Virus record (IMG/VR): IMGVR_UViG_3300027763_000032 | Location: 57,011-121,010 of that record | From: a virus | Length of the DNA stretch: 64,000 nucleotides | Strand: one strand, 5' to 3' | Shown: positions 10,390 to 18,499 of the stretch, one piece after another | How the letters are laid out: the number at the start of each line of letters is the position of its first letter | Position numbering within the stretch: the first letter of the stretch is position 1 | The notes under the pieces: generated by a model | What the model was told of the DNA's origin: nothing | The model's input: only the letters and a program-made list of their open reading frames with translations | Databases searched by the model: none | Made by a program: the position numbers and the translations under genes

Positions 10390-11094
10390 ATGATTATATT
10401 ATATACGCTAATAGTAACACATATTACAATTGTCTGCGTTACCCTGTTCCTACATAGGGGACAAGCACATAGAGGATTTGTGTTTAATCCCCTGCTAGAA
10501 CACTTTATGAGATTCTGGCTATGGCTAACAACTGGCATGGTTACTAAACAATGGGTGGCTATACACCGCAAGCATCACAGATTTAGTGATGAGTCTGGTG
10601 ATCCGCATAGTCCTCATGTATATGGTATATGGCGAGTACTATTTAAAGGTGCAGGATTATATCATTCTGCAAGCAAAGACGCTGAAATGATCCAACAGTA
10701 CGGTGTAGGTACACCTGATGATTGGGTCGAACGCAACGTGTACACCCAACACAGTCGCCTGGGCATTCTCCTAATGTTAGTCATAGACTTATTGTTATTT
10801 GGGCCGTTAGGCATTGTAGTGTGGGGTGTACAAATGATATGGATTCCATTCTGGGCCGCTGGTGTTATTAACGGTGTCGCTCATTGGATAGGATATCGCA
10901 ATGGCACTACTAAAGATCAAAGCCGCAATATCAGTCCTTGGGGTATTATAATAGGCGGTGAAGAACTGCATAACAACCATCATCTCGAGCCGGCAAACCC
11001 TAAACTAAGCAGACGTTGGTTTGAGTTTGACTTGGGCTGGATGTGGTTTACTGTATTTAAAACACTTAGACTAGCTAAACTTAGATCAGTTTAA
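10390..11094 (+). CDS. acyl-lipid/acyl-CoA fatty acid desaturase
   Basis: 234 aa with the three histidine boxes of the membrane di-iron desaturase family: HRGQAHR (about 19-25), HRKHHR (about 57-62) and HNNHH (about 197-201). FWLWLTTGMVTKQW precedes the second box as in delta-9-type bacterial desaturases. Four hydrophobic segments are seen, so it is an inner-membrane enzyme that would add a double bond to acyl chains using O2 and an electron donor. It is shorter at the N-terminus than many relatives but complete for the active site. It is transcribed from a late promoter and converges with the sulfotransferase gene (4-bp overlap). Confidence 0.9.
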   Translation: MIILYTLIVTHITIVCVTLFLHRGQAHRGFVFNPLLEHFMRFWLWLTTGMVTKQWVAIHRKHHRFSDESGDPHSPHVYGIWRVLFKGAGLYHSASKDAEMIQQYGVGTPDDWVERNVYTQHSRLGILLMLVIDLLLFGPLGIVVWGVQMIWIPFWAAGVINGVAHWIGYRNGTTKDQSRNISPWGIIIGGEELHNNHHLEPANPKLSRRWFEFDLGWMWFTVFKTLRLAKLRSV

Positions 11095-12492: not shown

Positions 12493-12522
12493 GTTGACAC
12501 AGTCAACACAAGGCTATATAAT
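12493..12522 (+). promoter_or_regulatory. sigma70-type promoter with palindrome over the -35 box
   Basis: TTGACA (12494-12499) and TATAAT (12517-12522) are separated by exactly 17 bp, a full consensus match. The -35 box lies inside a perfect inverted repeat, GTTGAC-ACA-GTCAAC (12493-12507), which could be an operator. It would drive dsbA and the polymerase operon from the start of infection. The dsbA ribosome site AAGGAGA follows at 12534-12540. Confidence 0.82.
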
Positions 12523-12544: not shown

Positions 12545-12805
12545 ATGGGCGCACGTACCTATGGGCCAGAAGAAAAGGCCAAACTAGAAAGACTCATCAA
12601 CGAAGGCGTACAAATCAAATATGAAATGGAAAGCCTGTCAGAAGGACTCAAAGAAACTGTTAAAGCAGTTGCCGAAGAGTTAGAAATTAAACCCTCACTA
12701 ATTAACAAAGCCATCAGCATTGCCCATAAGGGTAATTGGAATGACGTATTCAGCGACTTTGACGATCTTGAAACATTGATCGTAACTGTAGGCAAGGATA
12801 AATGA
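12545..12805 (+). CDS. dsbA: DsbA-like double-stranded DNA-binding protein
   Basis: 86 aa, similar in length to T4 DsbA (89 aa), a dsDNA-binding protein that stimulates late transcription. The pattern is KLERLINEGVQIKYEME, then LKETVKAVAEELEIKPSLIN and a final acidic segment, matching the phage DsbA style of an alpha-helical domain ending in AKK/HKGN. The gene is first behind a consensus promoter and overlaps the next gene by ATGA. Assignment is by sequence resemblance recalled from cyanophage homologues. Confidence 0.7.
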   Translation: MGARTYGPEEKAKLERLINEGVQIKYEMESLSEGLKETVKAVAEELEIKPSLINKAISIAHKGNWNDVFSDFDDLETLIVTVGKDK

Positions 12806-13095
12806 TCGACACAATATTTGCACCAACTATACAATGGATTAAAGATGACTTTAAGTCTAATAGAGTTCGCTTTGCTGTTGAGTTGCTTGCTTGGACTATC
12901 AGTATTGGTTGCAGTATTACTATGGCGCTCACAGTCCCTACTCCACCGCTTATTATTCTTTATCCTATTTGGATTGCTGGCTGTGCCATGTATGCTTGGG
13001 CTAGTTGGACTAGGAAATCTTTTGGTATGCTGGCTAACTATATACTGTTGACCACTATTGATAGCATTGGCCTAATTAGGATGCTAAGTAATTAA
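12802..13095 (+). CDS. small phage membrane protein, 97 aa
   Basis: Two to three transmembrane helices (about 25-45, 50-67 and 75-95) with LIILYPIWIAGCAMYAW and RKSFGMLANYILL. Small inner-membrane proteins of this type precede the polymerase in marine T4-like phages. It starts in an ATGA overlap with dsbA. An overlapping hydrophobic frame (12818-13051) is a shadow. Function unknown. Confidence 0.72.
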   Translation: MIDTIFAPTIQWIKDDFKSNRVRFAVELLAWTISIGCSITMALTVPTPPLIILYPIWIAGCAMYAWASWTRKSFGMLANYILLTTIDSIGLIRMLSN

Positions 13096-13105
13096 GAGAA
13101 AGGTT

Positions 13106-13153
13106 TAGTCAGCCATAAATGACTACATTGGTATTTGTGAGCCCTAAATCACA
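13106..13153 (+). promoter_or_regulatory. tandem RNA hairpins upstream of DNA polymerase: likely translational operator
   Basis: Hairpin 1: TAGTCA/TGACTA (13106-13111, 13120-13125) with the 8-nt loop GCCATAAA. Hairpin 2: TGTGA/TCACA (13136-13140, 13149-13153) with loop GCCCTAAA, followed at once by the ribosome site AAGGAG (13155-13160). Loops agree at 7 of 8 bases while the stems differ yet still pair. In T4, gp43 represses its own translation by binding a hairpin with a 5-bp stem and 8-nt loop next to the gene 43 ribosome site; the same geometry is seen here, doubled. Confidence 0.75.
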
Positions 13154-13164
13154 TAAGGAGAAAT

Positions 13165-15834
13165 ATGAGCTATGTAGATGCTCTCTTTGACAGAGAGAAC
13201 GACACTATTAAAGTTGTCGAACGAAACAACAAAGGCGAACGGGTCTATAAAGAACACCCTGTACGCTACACATTTTACTATCCGGACCAACGAGGTAAGT
13301 TCACAAGTATTTACGGTGAACCTCTTACTAAGGTAGTATGCAAGAACACTAAAGACTTCCGTAAAGAAGTTTCTATTGCTTCAAATAAAGAACTGTACGA
13401 AAGCGATATTAATCCAATCTTTGTACACCTATCCGAAAACTATTTAAATCAAGATGCACCTAAGCTAAACATCTGCTTCTTCGACATTGAGGTAGACTTT
13501 GATCCAGAACGTGGCTATAGCACTCCAGAAGATGCTTTCATGCCAATCACTGCTATCACTGTTTACCTAAAGTGGATGAAGAAGTTAATCACATTAGCAA
13601 TGCCTCCTAAGGGCATGAAGATGGAAGATGCTGTTAAACTAGTTGCTGATATTCCTGATACACATTTGTTCGACAACGAAGGTGACATGTTGGAAACATT
13701 CCTGGATCTAATCCAAGATGCTGATATTATCAGTGGTTGGAACAGTGAAGGCTATGACGTTCCCTATACTGTTAATCGTGTTACTCGTGTATTAAGCAAA
13801 GAAGATACTAAACGTTTCTGCCTTTGGGGACAGTTGCCTAAGAAACGTGAATATGAAAAATATGGGAAGCAGGCTGTTACATATGACTTCCACGGTCGTG
13901 TACACTTAGACAGTCTTGAACTATATCGCAAATACACTTATGAAGAACGTCACACATATCGATTAGACGCCATCGGTGAAATGGAAGTAGGCGAAAACAA
14001 AACTGTCTACGAAGGTACACTGGATCAACTGTACAACAATGACTTCCATAAGTTTATTGTCTATAACAGACAAGATACCTTACTGCTAAACAAACTAGAT
14101 GACAAATTAAAGTTTATTGACCTTGCTAATACACTGGCACACGAATGTACTGTATTGTTACAGACTACAATGGGTGCGGTTGCTGTAACTGAGCAGGCTA
14201 TTATTAATGAATGCCATCGTAGAGGATTCCAAGTTCCTAATAGACAAAAACGTGACGAGGATGCTGATAATTCAGCCGCAGGTGCGTATGTTGCCTATCC
14301 CAAAGAAGGTATTCATGAATGGATTGGTTCCTTAGACATTAACAGTCTTTATCCCTCAGCTATTCGTGCGCTCAACATGGGTCCAGAGACTATTGTTGGA
14401 CAGTTACGCCAGACTGAAACAGATAACTTTATCCACGAACAAATGACGCTCAAGAAGAAGTCATTTGCCGCAAGTTGGGAAGGTATGTTTGGATCACTAG
14501 AATATCAGTATGTTATGGAACAACGTATCGATAAAACTATTATTATTGATTGGGAAGATGGTAATAGTACAGAACATTCAGCCGCAGAAGTATACAAGTT
14601 AATATTTGACAGCAATCAATCCTGGATGATTTCAGCCAACGGCACACTCTTTACCTACGAGAAAGAAGGTATCATTCCTGGACTACTAAAACGTTGGTAT
14701 GCTGAACGTAAGGAAATGCAGGCCAAACTTAAAGACTGTATCAAAGCAGAGAATAAAGTAGAAGAAGAATATTGGGATAAAAGACAGCTAGTTAAGAAGA
14801 TTAACCTAAATAGTCTATATGGTGCTATCCTTAATGCTGGTTGTAGATTCTTTGACAAGCGTATTGGACAGTCAACTACCCTAACAGGACGACAGATTGT
14901 TAAACATATGGCTGGTAAAGTAAACGAGATTATTACAGGTGATTTTGATTATCGTGGTAAGGCAATTATCTACGGTGATACTGACAGTTGTTATTTTTCC
15001 GGCTACACTACATTAAAGAAAGATATCGACTCTGGTGCTATTCCGTGGACTAAAGAAAACGTCATTGCTCTCTACGATCAAGTAGGTGATGAGGTTAATA
15101 AAACATTCCCAGGCTTTATGGAAAATGCATTTCATTGTCCTCACAGCCGGGGAGAAGTTATCAAAGCAGGTCGTGAAATTGTTGCAATTAAAGGCTTGTT
15201 CATTACTAAGAAACGATATGCTGTTCTTTACTTTGATAAAGAAGGCAAGCGCACTGACGTAGATGGCAAGCCCGGCAAGATCAAGGCCATGGGGTTAGAT
15301 CTGAAACGCAGTGACACACCCGAATTTATTCAAAACTTCTTGAGTGATATTCTAGAACGAGTACTAACTGTAGGGTCAGAAGAAGCAGTACTAGAACACA
15401 TTACTAGGTTCCGTAGTGAGTTTAAGGCTCGACCCGGTTGGGAGAAAGGTAGTCCAAAACGTGCAAACAACATTACCGAGTATCAGGCCAAGGAAGCCAA
15501 AGCAGGTAAAGCCAACATGCCTGGACATGTTCGAGCAAGTATTAATTGGAATACTCTACGCCGTATGAACGGTGACAAGTATTCAATGCAAATTACAGAT
15601 GGACAGAAGGTCATTGTCTGTAAACTAAAGCCTAATCCAATTGGCTTTACCTCAGTTGCCTATCCGGTAGACGAACTACGTTTGCCTAAATGGTTTATGG
15701 AATTACCATTTGACGACGCAGAAATGGAACAGACTATTATTGATAACAAACTAGAAAACCTTATTGGTGTTTTAGGATGGGACATTAAGAGTACGGAAGA
15801 AAAGAACACTTTTAATCAACTCTTTGAGTTTTAA
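13165..15834 (+). CDS. 43: DNA polymerase, T4 gp43-like family B
   Basis: 889 aa (T4 gp43 is 898). The 3'-5' exonuclease motifs are present: FFDIEVDFD (about 105), ISGWNSEGYDVPY (about 190) and YNRQDTLL (about 301). Polymerase motif A is SLDINSLYPSAI (about 389), motif B is KKINLNSLYGAIL (about 544), and motif C is YGDTDSCYF (about 603). It replicates the phage genome with the clamp encoded just downstream. Start set by AAGGAG 5 nt ahead of ATG. It is probably autoregulated through the tandem hairpins upstream. No intein or split is seen. Confidence 0.98.
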   Translation: MSYVDALFDRENDTIKVVERNNKGERVYKEHPVRYTFYYPDQRGKFTSIYGEPLTKVVCKNTKDFRKEVSIASNKELYESDINPIFVHLSENYLNQDAPKLNICFFDIEVDFDPERGYSTPEDAFMPITAITVYLKWMKKLITLAMPPKGMKMEDAVKLVADIPDTHLFDNEGDMLETFLDLIQDADIISGWNSEGYDVPYTVNRVTRVLSKEDTKRFCLWGQLPKKREYEKYGKQAVTYDFHGRVHLDSLELYRKYTYEERHTYRLDAIGEMEVGENKTVYEGTLDQLYNNDFHKFIVYNRQDTLLLNKLDDKLKFIDLANTLAHECTVLLQTTMGAVAVTEQAIINECHRRGFQVPNRQKRDEDADNSAAGAYVAYPKEGIHEWIGSLDINSLYPSAIRALNMGPETIVGQLRQTETDNFIHEQMTLKKKSFAASWEGMFGSLEYQYVMEQRIDKTIIIDWEDGNSTEHSAAEVYKLIFDSNQSWMISANGTLFTYEKEGIIPGLLKRWYAERKEMQAKLKDCIKAENKVEEEYWDKRQLVKKINLNSLYGAILNAGCRFFDKRIGQSTTLTGRQIVKHMAGKVNEIITGDFDYRGKAIIYGDTDSCYFSGYTTLKKDIDSGAIPWTKENVIALYDQVGDEVNKTFPGFMENAFHCPHSRGEVIKAGREIVAIKGLFITKKRYAVLYFDKEGKRTDVDGKPGKIKAMGLDLKRSDTPEFIQNFLSDILERVLTVGSEEAVLEHITRFRSEFKARPGWEKGSPKRANNITEYQAKEAKAGKANMPGHVRASINWNTLRRMNGDKYSMQITDGQKVIVCKLKPNPIGFTSVAYPVDELRLPKWFMELPFDDAEMEQTIIDNKLENLIGVLGWDIKSTEEKNTFNQLFEF

Positions 15835-16620: not shown

Positions 16621-16970
16621 TGAATAGTGTACAAGTATTTTCCGGATGTCTAGCGTTCTTAGTTCTATGTGGTGTTGTATATCGCCACATAGGATTTGCA
16701 AAAATGAAAGAATGTTATGGCATGTGGTTTACAAAGGAATACTGGACCGACTACAACACTGTGGAGTTTGCCAGTTGGGCGGCGAAGGCCTGTATTATTG
16801 TTCCTGGCTTAATATTTGGTATACAAATTTGGTGGTTATATTTCTTTACATTGGCAACAAGTCTAACACTTATTTGGGCTAGTGAGAAAAAGCTACTTCC
16901 AACTCTAGTAGGATTTAACACTATATGGGTATGGATTAGTTGCATGGTATTGGCAAAACATTTAATATGA
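16620..16970 (+). CDS. phage membrane protein, 116 aa
   Basis: Three predicted transmembrane helices: FSGCLAFLVLCGVVY (about 8-22), ACIIVPGLIFGIQIWWLYFF (about 57-76), and LVGFNTIWVWISCMVLA (about 97-113). Starts on the last base of the clamp stop and overlaps the transglycosylase start by ATGA. Function unknown; position between clamp and DpdA may be incidental. Confidence 0.68.
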   Translation: MNSVQVFSGCLAFLVLCGVVYRHIGFAKMKECYGMWFTKEYWTDYNTVEFASWAAKACIIVPGLIFGIQIWWLYFFTLATSLTLIWASEKKLLPTLVGFNTIWVWISCMVLAKHLI

Positions 16971-18499
16971 ATAAAAACTTAACAGCAACGCAAAACGATT
17001 ATGCATATTTCTTGCCAGCTACGTCGGGCTTCTACTCAACGTTTATAGGCAAGCAAAGATATGGTAATTATGTAGACCCTGCACGTATTCCACCGAGTCT
17101 TACTAACGGAGTAGAAAGTCTTAACTATCTTAATCCAGACAAGGGTCAGTTTTACTTTGATCATTGTTTGTATTCAGCAGGTCATGCTAACTTAGACCTT
17201 AACAAGCCAGACGAAACTGAGGACATGTTCCGCAACAGAGATCGTAATACCAGTTGGGTATTAGGTGACTCAGGCGGATTCCAGATTGGTAAAGGTGTTT
17301 GGCCTGCTGACTGGAAAGATCCCAACTGTCCTAAAGCCGCATTAAAACGCAAACAAGTTTTAACGTGGATGGATAGTCTTATGGACTATGGCATGGGCCT
17401 TGATATTCCAGCGTGGGTCGCTCGTAGCCCTGCAGGACGTGCGGCAACTGGTATTAGCACATATAACGAAGCAGTCCAAGGCACGTTTATCAATAATGAA
17501 TACTTTATTAACAATCGTAACGGCAACTGTAAGTTCTTAAATGTTCTTCAAGGTGAAAACCATACTGATGCTGAAGGTTGGTATCAGCATATGAAGAAAT
17601 ATAGTGATCCAACAATCTATGGCGACCGTGCATTTAATGGTTGGGGCATGGGCGGACAAAACATGTGTGATATTCACCTTGTACTCAAACGTCTAGTAGC
17701 ATTACGCTTTGATGGCCTGCTAGAAAAAGGTCAACAAGATTGGATGCACTTTTTAGGTACTAGTAAGTTAGAATGGGCCGTACTATTAACTGACATTCAA
17801 CGTGCTGTACGCAAGCATCACAATAGTCAGTTCACTATTAGTTTTGATTGTGCAAGTCCATTCCTAGCAACTGCTAATGGACAGATCTATATCAACACAG
17901 AAACAGACGATCGTACCAAATGGGTCTATCGTATGCAATCGTCGGCTGATGATAAAAAATATTCTACTGATACTAGACTATTTAAAGATGCAGTATTACA
18001 AGATAAAATATTTGAACGATTTGAGTCAAGTCCTATTATTGATCAAATGCAAATGAAAGATATTTGCATCTATAAGCCAGGCGACCTAAATAAGAATGGT
18101 AAAGAAGGTAAGACGTCTTGGGATAGTTTTAGCTATGCTTTAATGATGGGGCATAATGTTTGGATGCATATTAATGCCGTTCAAGAAGCCAATCGCCAAT
18201 ATGATTTGGGCAAATTGCCGTCCATGTTAGTTGACGAACGCTTTGATAGAGTGTATTATAAGGACATAGTAGAAGCAATATTTTCAACTAGTGATAGAGG
18301 TATAGCTGATGCTGTTGTAGAAGAATACAGCAGATATTGGATGAGTATTATTGGTACTAGAGGTGCAACAGGTAAAAAGACAGTAAACGCACAAACACAT
18401 GCGGACATACACTTTGAAATCGAAGCTAACTTAGAGCCGGAAAAGAAAGCCAAAGTTGAACCTAAAGAAATTATCCTTAACCCGAGTTTATTTGAATGA
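16967..18499 (+). CDS. dpdA: DpdA/Tgt-like 7-deazaguanine transglycosylase
   Basis: The ATG at 16967 (ATGA overlap) gives 510 aa. LGDSGGFQIG with D101 matches the TDSGGFQ motif of tRNA-guanine transglycosylases, FLNVLQGE matches their VQG segment, and FDCASPF places D294 at the nucleophile position of FDCVxPT. The C-terminal zinc motif of bacterial Tgt (C-x-C-x2-C) is absent, as in the DpdA branch that swaps guanine in DNA for a 7-deazaguanine. Phage DpdA enzymes protect DNA from restriction (established). QueD-, FolE- and QueE-like genes lie downstream, which supports a DNA role. A tRNA role is the alternative. Confidence 0.82.
   Translation: MNKNLTATQNDYAYFLPATSGFYSTFIGKQRYGNYVDPARIPPSLTNGVESLNYLNPDKGQFYFDHCLYSAGHANLDLNKPDETEDMFRNRDRNTSWVLGDSGGFQIGKGVWPADWKDPNCPKAALKRKQVLTWMDSLMDYGMGLDIPAWVARSPAGRAATGISTYNEAVQGTFINNEYFINNRNGNCKFLNVLQGENHTDAEGWYQHMKKYSDPTIYGDRAFNGWGMGGQNMCDIHLVLKRLVALRFDGLLEKGQQDWMHFLGTSKLEWAVLLTDIQRAVRKHHNSQFTISFDCASPFLATANGQIYINTETDDRTKWVYRMQSSADDKKYSTDTRLFKDAVLQDKIFERFESSPIIDQMQMKDICIYKPGDLNKNGKEGKTSWDSFSYALMMGHNVWMHINAVQEANRQYDLGKLPSMLVDERFDRVYYKDIVEAIFSTSDRGIADAVVEEYSRYWMSIIGTRGATGKKTVNAQTHADIHFEIEANLEPEKKAKVEPKEIILNPSLFE

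Follow-up and report, generated by a model that had tools for sequence, protein, structure and literature searches.

A Doubled, Probably Pseudoknotted RNA Element in the Leader of a Phage DNA Polymerase Gene: A Candidate for Autogenous Translational Control

Introduction

The phage DNA polymerase gp43 represses its own translation through a hairpin in the leader of its mRNA, a mode of control known or reported for T4, RB69 and RB49; not all gp43 proteins autoregulate (PMC3014915). The hairpins preceding gene 43 read AGCCU-AAUAACUC-GGGCU in T4, AGAC-AAUAACUC-GUCU in RB69 and UCUUU-CGUAAAUG-AAGGA in RB49. The UAAC loop is also favoured in SELEX experiments, where CAAC is the major variant, and RB49 has UAAA (PMC3014915). 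A related case is the gene 32 mRNA of T4, T2 and RB69, where an H-type pseudoknot in the leader of another replication protein likewise mediates autogenous control (PMC3014915). As of the same review, there is no structure of a gp43-RNA complex, and the specific recognition of RNA by a DNA polymerase is structurally unsolved. Our literature search on such polymerase leader control found only reviews of the T4 group.

Here, we analyse the leader of a polymerase gene in a viral record, IMGVR_UViG_3300027763_000032 (121 kb), of which a 64-kb part, termed the window, was studied. Control of gp43 through a leader hairpin is already described; what is probably new at this locus is a doubled, pseudoknotted fold with another loop.

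The Polymerase Locus and Its Leader

The gene in question (polB, 13165-15834, plus strand) codes for a family-B DNA polymerase of 889 amino acids, which is of the gp43 type according to Pfam (DNA_pol_B, 3.5e-37) and PHROG (phrog_262, 7e-205), as the first-pass annotation had assumed. The best solved relative of this protein is RB69 gp43, and the polymerase is the presumed repressor of its own leader. Directly upstream on the same strand lies a 97-aa ORF (12802-13095), which ends 69 nt before polB, is without PHROG match and matches Pfam only below threshold. It is preceded by an ORF for a DsbA-like transcriptional regulator (12545-12805, plus strand), which matches phrog_639 (transcriptional regulator, 1.6e-10) and, below the curated cut-off, Pfam PF11126 (E 0.00099). 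A perfect match to the sigma-70 consensus promoter (TTGACA-17-TATAAT, 12/12, spacer 17) is located at 12494-12522 before the DsbA-like ORF, and a terminator scan of the 69-nt gap before polB yielded no terminator-like site; hence, the leader element probably sits within an mRNA. The phage genome also harbours a fatty acid desaturase ORF (10390-11094; Pfam PF00487, 4.9e-14).

The 69-nt gap is almost filled by a tandem element on the plus strand. In the DNA, the first hairpin reads TAGTCA-GCCATAAA-TGACTA (13106-13125) and the second TGTGA-GCCCTAAA-TCACA (13136-13153). The initial description of these hairpins, with stems of 6 and 5 bp, a distance of 10 nt and loops identical at 7 of 8 positions, proved accurate, and so did the placement of the second hairpin beside AAGGAG: its 3' arm ends one nucleotide (T) before this Shine-Dalgarno sequence (13155-13160). 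The coordinates hold for the hairpins, but they omit a conserved GGU upstream of each (13102-13104 and 13130-13132), which belongs to the same unit.

In the following, S2 denotes the hairpin stem, S1 the putative helix formed by the upstream GGU and the loop, L1 the nucleotides between S1 and S2, and L3 the remainder of the loop. Unit 1 comprises the S1 5' strand GGU (13102-13104), L1, the S2 5' arm UAGUCA (13106-13111; 6 bp, the inner 4 bp of which are the conserved stem), the loop GCCAUAAA (13112-13119; GCC as S1 3' strand, AUAAA as L3) and the S2 3' arm UGACUA (13120-13125). Accordingly, unit 2 consists of GGU (13130-13132), the 5' arm UGUGA (13136-13140), the loop GCCCUAAA (13141-13148; GCC and CUAAA) and the 3' arm UCACA (13149-13153).

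When the leader was shuffled 20,000 times with dinucleotides preserved, such tandem hairpins, defined as two hairpins of at least 5 bp each with 8-nt loops and a loop identity of at least 7/8, never arose. The folding energy of the isolated leader is no better than that of shuffles (z -0.11), and another nested fold scores better than the two hairpins (-15.1 vs -10.8 kcal/mol); nested folding programs cannot model a pseudoknot. Folding energy being uninformative, the evidence for the tandem element is comparative.

Conservation of Stem and Loop in Related Phages

Queried with the polymerase of the window and four relatives, viral contigs yielded hundreds of loci, and bacterial genomes yielded no polymerase relative; a search of 50,697 phage records for the leader DNA itself gave no match. 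Related viral contigs supplied 171 distinct polymerase leaders, which were placed on a polymerase tree calculated with FastTree; 138 of them keep the start-proximal unit 2. These leaders include the clade of the window, with 76-100% polymerase identity, and a sister clade with 66-68% identity to the window.

Gap-free alignments were made of unit 2 alone and of a set mixing units 1 and 2. The covariation score lies above all 500 shuffles and above all slid registers, and every stem cell is paired, as opposed to 10-52% in the slid registers. The three inner pairs of unit 2 have undergone at least 20, 21 and 20 changes on the tree and are paired in 138/138 leaders; since unit 2 was called only where the stem had 3 bp or more, this percentage is partly selected, the variety of pairs is not. 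The unit 1 stem of the relatives is likewise always paired, with the pair types AU/GC, CG/GC and UA/CG. Two leaders (L004 and L055) differ solely by a compensatory swap, from GUGA/UCAC to GUCA/UGAC. The loop hardly varies at GCC and AA. Thus, both the stem covariation and the loop conservation that the first-pass annotation looked for in relatives are found.

An independent scan used a DNA pattern that specified nothing but the flanking GCATGAATCA, CCNYAA and GGAG, leaving stem, GGY and loop 1 free. It recovered the same paired fold before polB, or before an ORF inserted there, the exceptions being two GC-rich, unrelated contigs. Among the leaders, deviations comprise AC in place of AA (L366), an A-C mismatch in S2 (L102) and an extra G (L387). 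Taken together, the comparison indicates that S2 is under selection as an RNA structure of about 5 bp with an 8-nt loop, and that the shape of the element is kept while its letters changed in well over a hundred related phages.

Pairing of the Loop with an Upstream Motif

A GG(U/C) triplet is found 8-11 nt upstream of the loop in 138/138 unit 2 leaders, where it was not selected for; in unit 1 it is invariant in 17 distinct leaders, and there GGY was part of the selection. This GGY is able to pair with the loop GCC. Its third base has changed about 20 times on the tree and is always U or C, each able to pair with G, and a U-G wobble at the third S1 pair, present in 50/138 leaders, points to the RNA level. 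In the sister leaders L423 and L466, the loop GCU is combined with upstream AGU and AGC, respectively, a two-sided change from G-C to A-U. Furthermore, leaders of the L184 and L280 types carry A at loop position 1, and their ACC goes with GGU, so that pairing is kept. One leader type (L239) combines AGC with GCC, which breaks one S1 pair. S1 also alternates between U-A and C-G/U-G pairs. Compensatory change therefore appears to maintain two interleaved helices, strongly in the case of S2, whereas for S1 the support includes a single AGY:GCU lineage.

The consensus of a unit is 5'-GGY, 2-4 nt, stem (3-6 bp), GCC-NYAAN, stem'-3', which yields S1 of 3 bp, L1 of 2-4 nt, S2 of 3-6 bp and L3 with the sequence NYAAN, and leaves no base between the helices. 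The element had been described as plain hairpins with 8-nt loops. As the first three loop bases pair with the upstream GGY, this part of the description gives way, and each unit most likely is a compact H-type pseudoknot. Small pseudoknots of this type have a short S1, a short L1 crossing S2 and an A-rich L3 crossing S1. The units share their fold class, with a short S1 and an A-rich L3, with the luteovirus frameshift pseudoknot and the preQ1-I riboswitch, but differ from these in function, length and sequence, and by the 3-bp S1 and the direct abutment of the helices.

A tandem of plain hairpins, whose 8-nt loops are bound by the polymerase and whose GGY and GCC are contacted by the protein, is an unlikely reading of the same data. 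Covariation of the stem needs no S1, plain hairpins with loops of 8 nt serve as operators in T4, RB69 and RB49 (PMC3014915), and protein contacts would fit the near-invariance of S1 pairs 1 and 2, which outside the one lineage with the two-sided change (the two sister leaders) are invariant. Yet GGY is always there, its third base is restricted to U or C, and the combinations of AGY with GCU and of GGU with ACC are predicted by pairing and not by protein contact.

The Ribosome Site and Proposed Autogenous Control

The location of the element on or beside the ribosome site, as originally described, extends to the relatives: the S2 3' arm of unit 2 overlaps the Shine-Dalgarno sequence in 78 leaders of the sister clade, and in nearly all other leaders the Shine-Dalgarno sequence starts at most 3 nt from this arm. 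Given this position, folding or protein binding at unit 2 should compete with binding of the 30S subunit.

The element resembles the gene 43 operators of T4, RB69 and RB49 in several respects. It occupies the leader of an orthologous gene, where it lies at or next to the Shine-Dalgarno sequence, and it features a stem of 4-6 bp and an 8-nt loop with (U/C)AAN, such that NYAAN resembles the UAAC, CAAC or UAAA core reported for gp43. It deviates from the single plain hairpin of the T4 type by comprising two units, the second of which abuts the Shine-Dalgarno sequence, and by the GGY:GCC pairing, which is absent from the T4, RB69 and RB49 operators. The expected difference in loop sequence from the T4/RB69 loop AAUAACUC was confirmed: the loop GCCNYAAN has YAA at positions 5-7 instead of 3-5, and only the YAAN core is common to both, two positions later than the UAAC core of T4 and RB69. 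In comparison to the single gene 32 pseudoknot, gene and protein are different, and two units of 23-25 nt are present at the ribosome site. The likeness of NYAAN in another register and the absence of GGY:GCC pairing from the known operators suggest a different, pseudoknotted and doubled fold, with autogenous repression as its most likely role.

Comparative analysis establishes that the structure is conserved, is located at polB and, in the scanned records, is restricted to this gene. A pairing-constrained scan of the 121-kb record found the two polB units only. In a 270-kb relative, the same scan gave two further matches, one in the primase reading frame and one without a following gene; convincing copies in both records occur solely at the polymerase gene. 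In a 337-kb record of the sister clade, whose own unit has 3 bp, only near-chance matches were found at 4 bp or more. The primase match (G004), a candidate extra copy before that gene, was rejected for its location inside the reading frame.

Since the gene codes for gp43, and gp43 of T4, RB69 and RB49 is known or reported to employ a leader hairpin, we favour with reasonable confidence a doubled, pseudoknotted translational operator in the polB leader, most likely under autogenous control by the polymerase. In this model, a small RNA fold, present as a tandem of two copies, would form a cis-acting operator on the mRNA. The polymerase, when in excess of primer-template, would bind the element and repress its own synthesis, as in T4; stabilised at the Shine-Dalgarno sequence, unit 2 would block 30S binding, and unit 1 would supply a second binding site.

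That the element is confined to polB speaks for autogenous control and against a global regulator. Any protein site that overlaps the Shine-Dalgarno sequence would create the same anatomy, and a first element that differs between the clades could mean two different binders, such that another phage or host RNA-binding protein, e.g., a RegA-like repressor, a single-strand binding protein or a host factor, might be the ligand. We regard this as improbable, given that in the two records scanned with the pairing constraint the element is found at polB only, and RegA acts on many mRNAs, without structure (PMC3014915). The RegA family (PF01818) has no match in ten relatives, a weak argument, as the positive control was likewise silent.

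The fold itself raises the question of a small metabolite. The aptamers of the preQ1-I and SAM-II riboswitches are H-type pseudoknots with an A-rich third loop, which the units recall, as does their tandem layout. Moreover, a 519-aa ORF (16940-18499) contains a DSGGFQ stretch and, by eye, resembles tRNA-guanine transglycosylase/DpdA. Nevertheless, a riboswitch made of two very small pseudoknot aptamers in tandem, sensing for instance a nucleotide or a 7-deazaguanine, is highly improbable. To our knowledge, known aptamers are larger than about 23 nt with a 3-bp S1, there is a single target gene, and the 519-aa ORF has neither a Pfam nor a PHROG match. Rfam covariance models did not match the window region at E values up to 5 and gave nothing relevant in five relatives at E values up to 1.

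The element family represents a natural library of co-varying operators together with their polymerases; if the autogenous model is true, polymerase-RNA binding specificity can be traced through more than 100 natural pairs, and the compact pseudoknot provides a target for structural work.

Distribution and Variation of the Element

The doubling holds for the window's clade, where both units are of the same type, but not for the sister clade, so that the notion of a doubled operator applies to the former only. The sister clade combines one such unit, unit 2, kept as GGY-N2..4-stem-GCCRYAAN-stem', with a different hairpin. This first element has a stem of 4 bp, which varies and stays paired, and a loop of 7 nt (ACGUUAC, CCGUAAG and others); conserved GANUCG and AUG lie on either side of the hairpin. 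Three leaders (L034, L124 and L135) illustrate the form GANUCG-NNNN-(A/C)CGUNA(C/G)-NNNN-AUG, a covarying stem in the place of unit 1. As the first elements of four leaders look intermediate (L150, with GGAUUC-GCUC-GCCUAAC-GGGC, as well as L165, L167 and L171), the sister-clade hairpin may be a diverged unit 1. It is an even call whether these leaders constitute a new family of tandem pseudoknot operators for the translational self-control of a replicative DNA polymerase, in which the copy at the ribosome site stayed fixed and the upstream one turned into another hairpin in the sister clade.

The element is absent from relatives at 55-57% identity (L038-L049, L051, L053 and L057) and from the polymerase leaders of the jumbo phages Phosso, Atu_ph07, GAP32, RaK2, 121Q, XbC2, XaC1, SCTP-2 and Vibrio 2.275.O. 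Of the 171 leaders, 33 have no unit 2 or hold it in altered or displaced form, and its presence switches about 19 times along the polymerase tree; hence, the unit is dispensable or often displaced. The existence of leaders without the element would suit an RNA element for processing or stability, or a structure that tunes translation without a ligand, and hairpins near a ribosome site can indeed tune translation or be cleaved. This explanation is quite unlikely, as the near-invariant loop GCC and AA and the upstream GGY are unneeded in a passive structure, and the terminator scan was negative. The family of elements as a whole is evidence for a widespread and flexible leader control of the polymerase among large T4-like phages that are known from metagenomes alone.

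In four cases (L077, L089, L183 and L230), inserted sequence separates polB from its leader, which remains upstream. ORFs are inserted at L089:867-1511 and L077:1199-1504, and likewise in L183 and L230, where the motif lies at -1039 and -814. The L089 insert codes for an HNH homing endonuclease (phrog_12324) and starts with the polB start sequence TTGAGTTAT; it thus sits under the polB leader. In four other leaders (L422, L465, L467 and L468), and likewise in L113, promoter-like sequence, such as TTGACA...TATATACAAT, replaces the element directly before the polB start codon. Finally, the leaders L169 and L170 are without unit 2; its place, about 40 nt upstream of polB, is taken by the plain hairpin GUGG-UAUCAUAAC-CCAC, the loop of which contains a T4-like UAAC.
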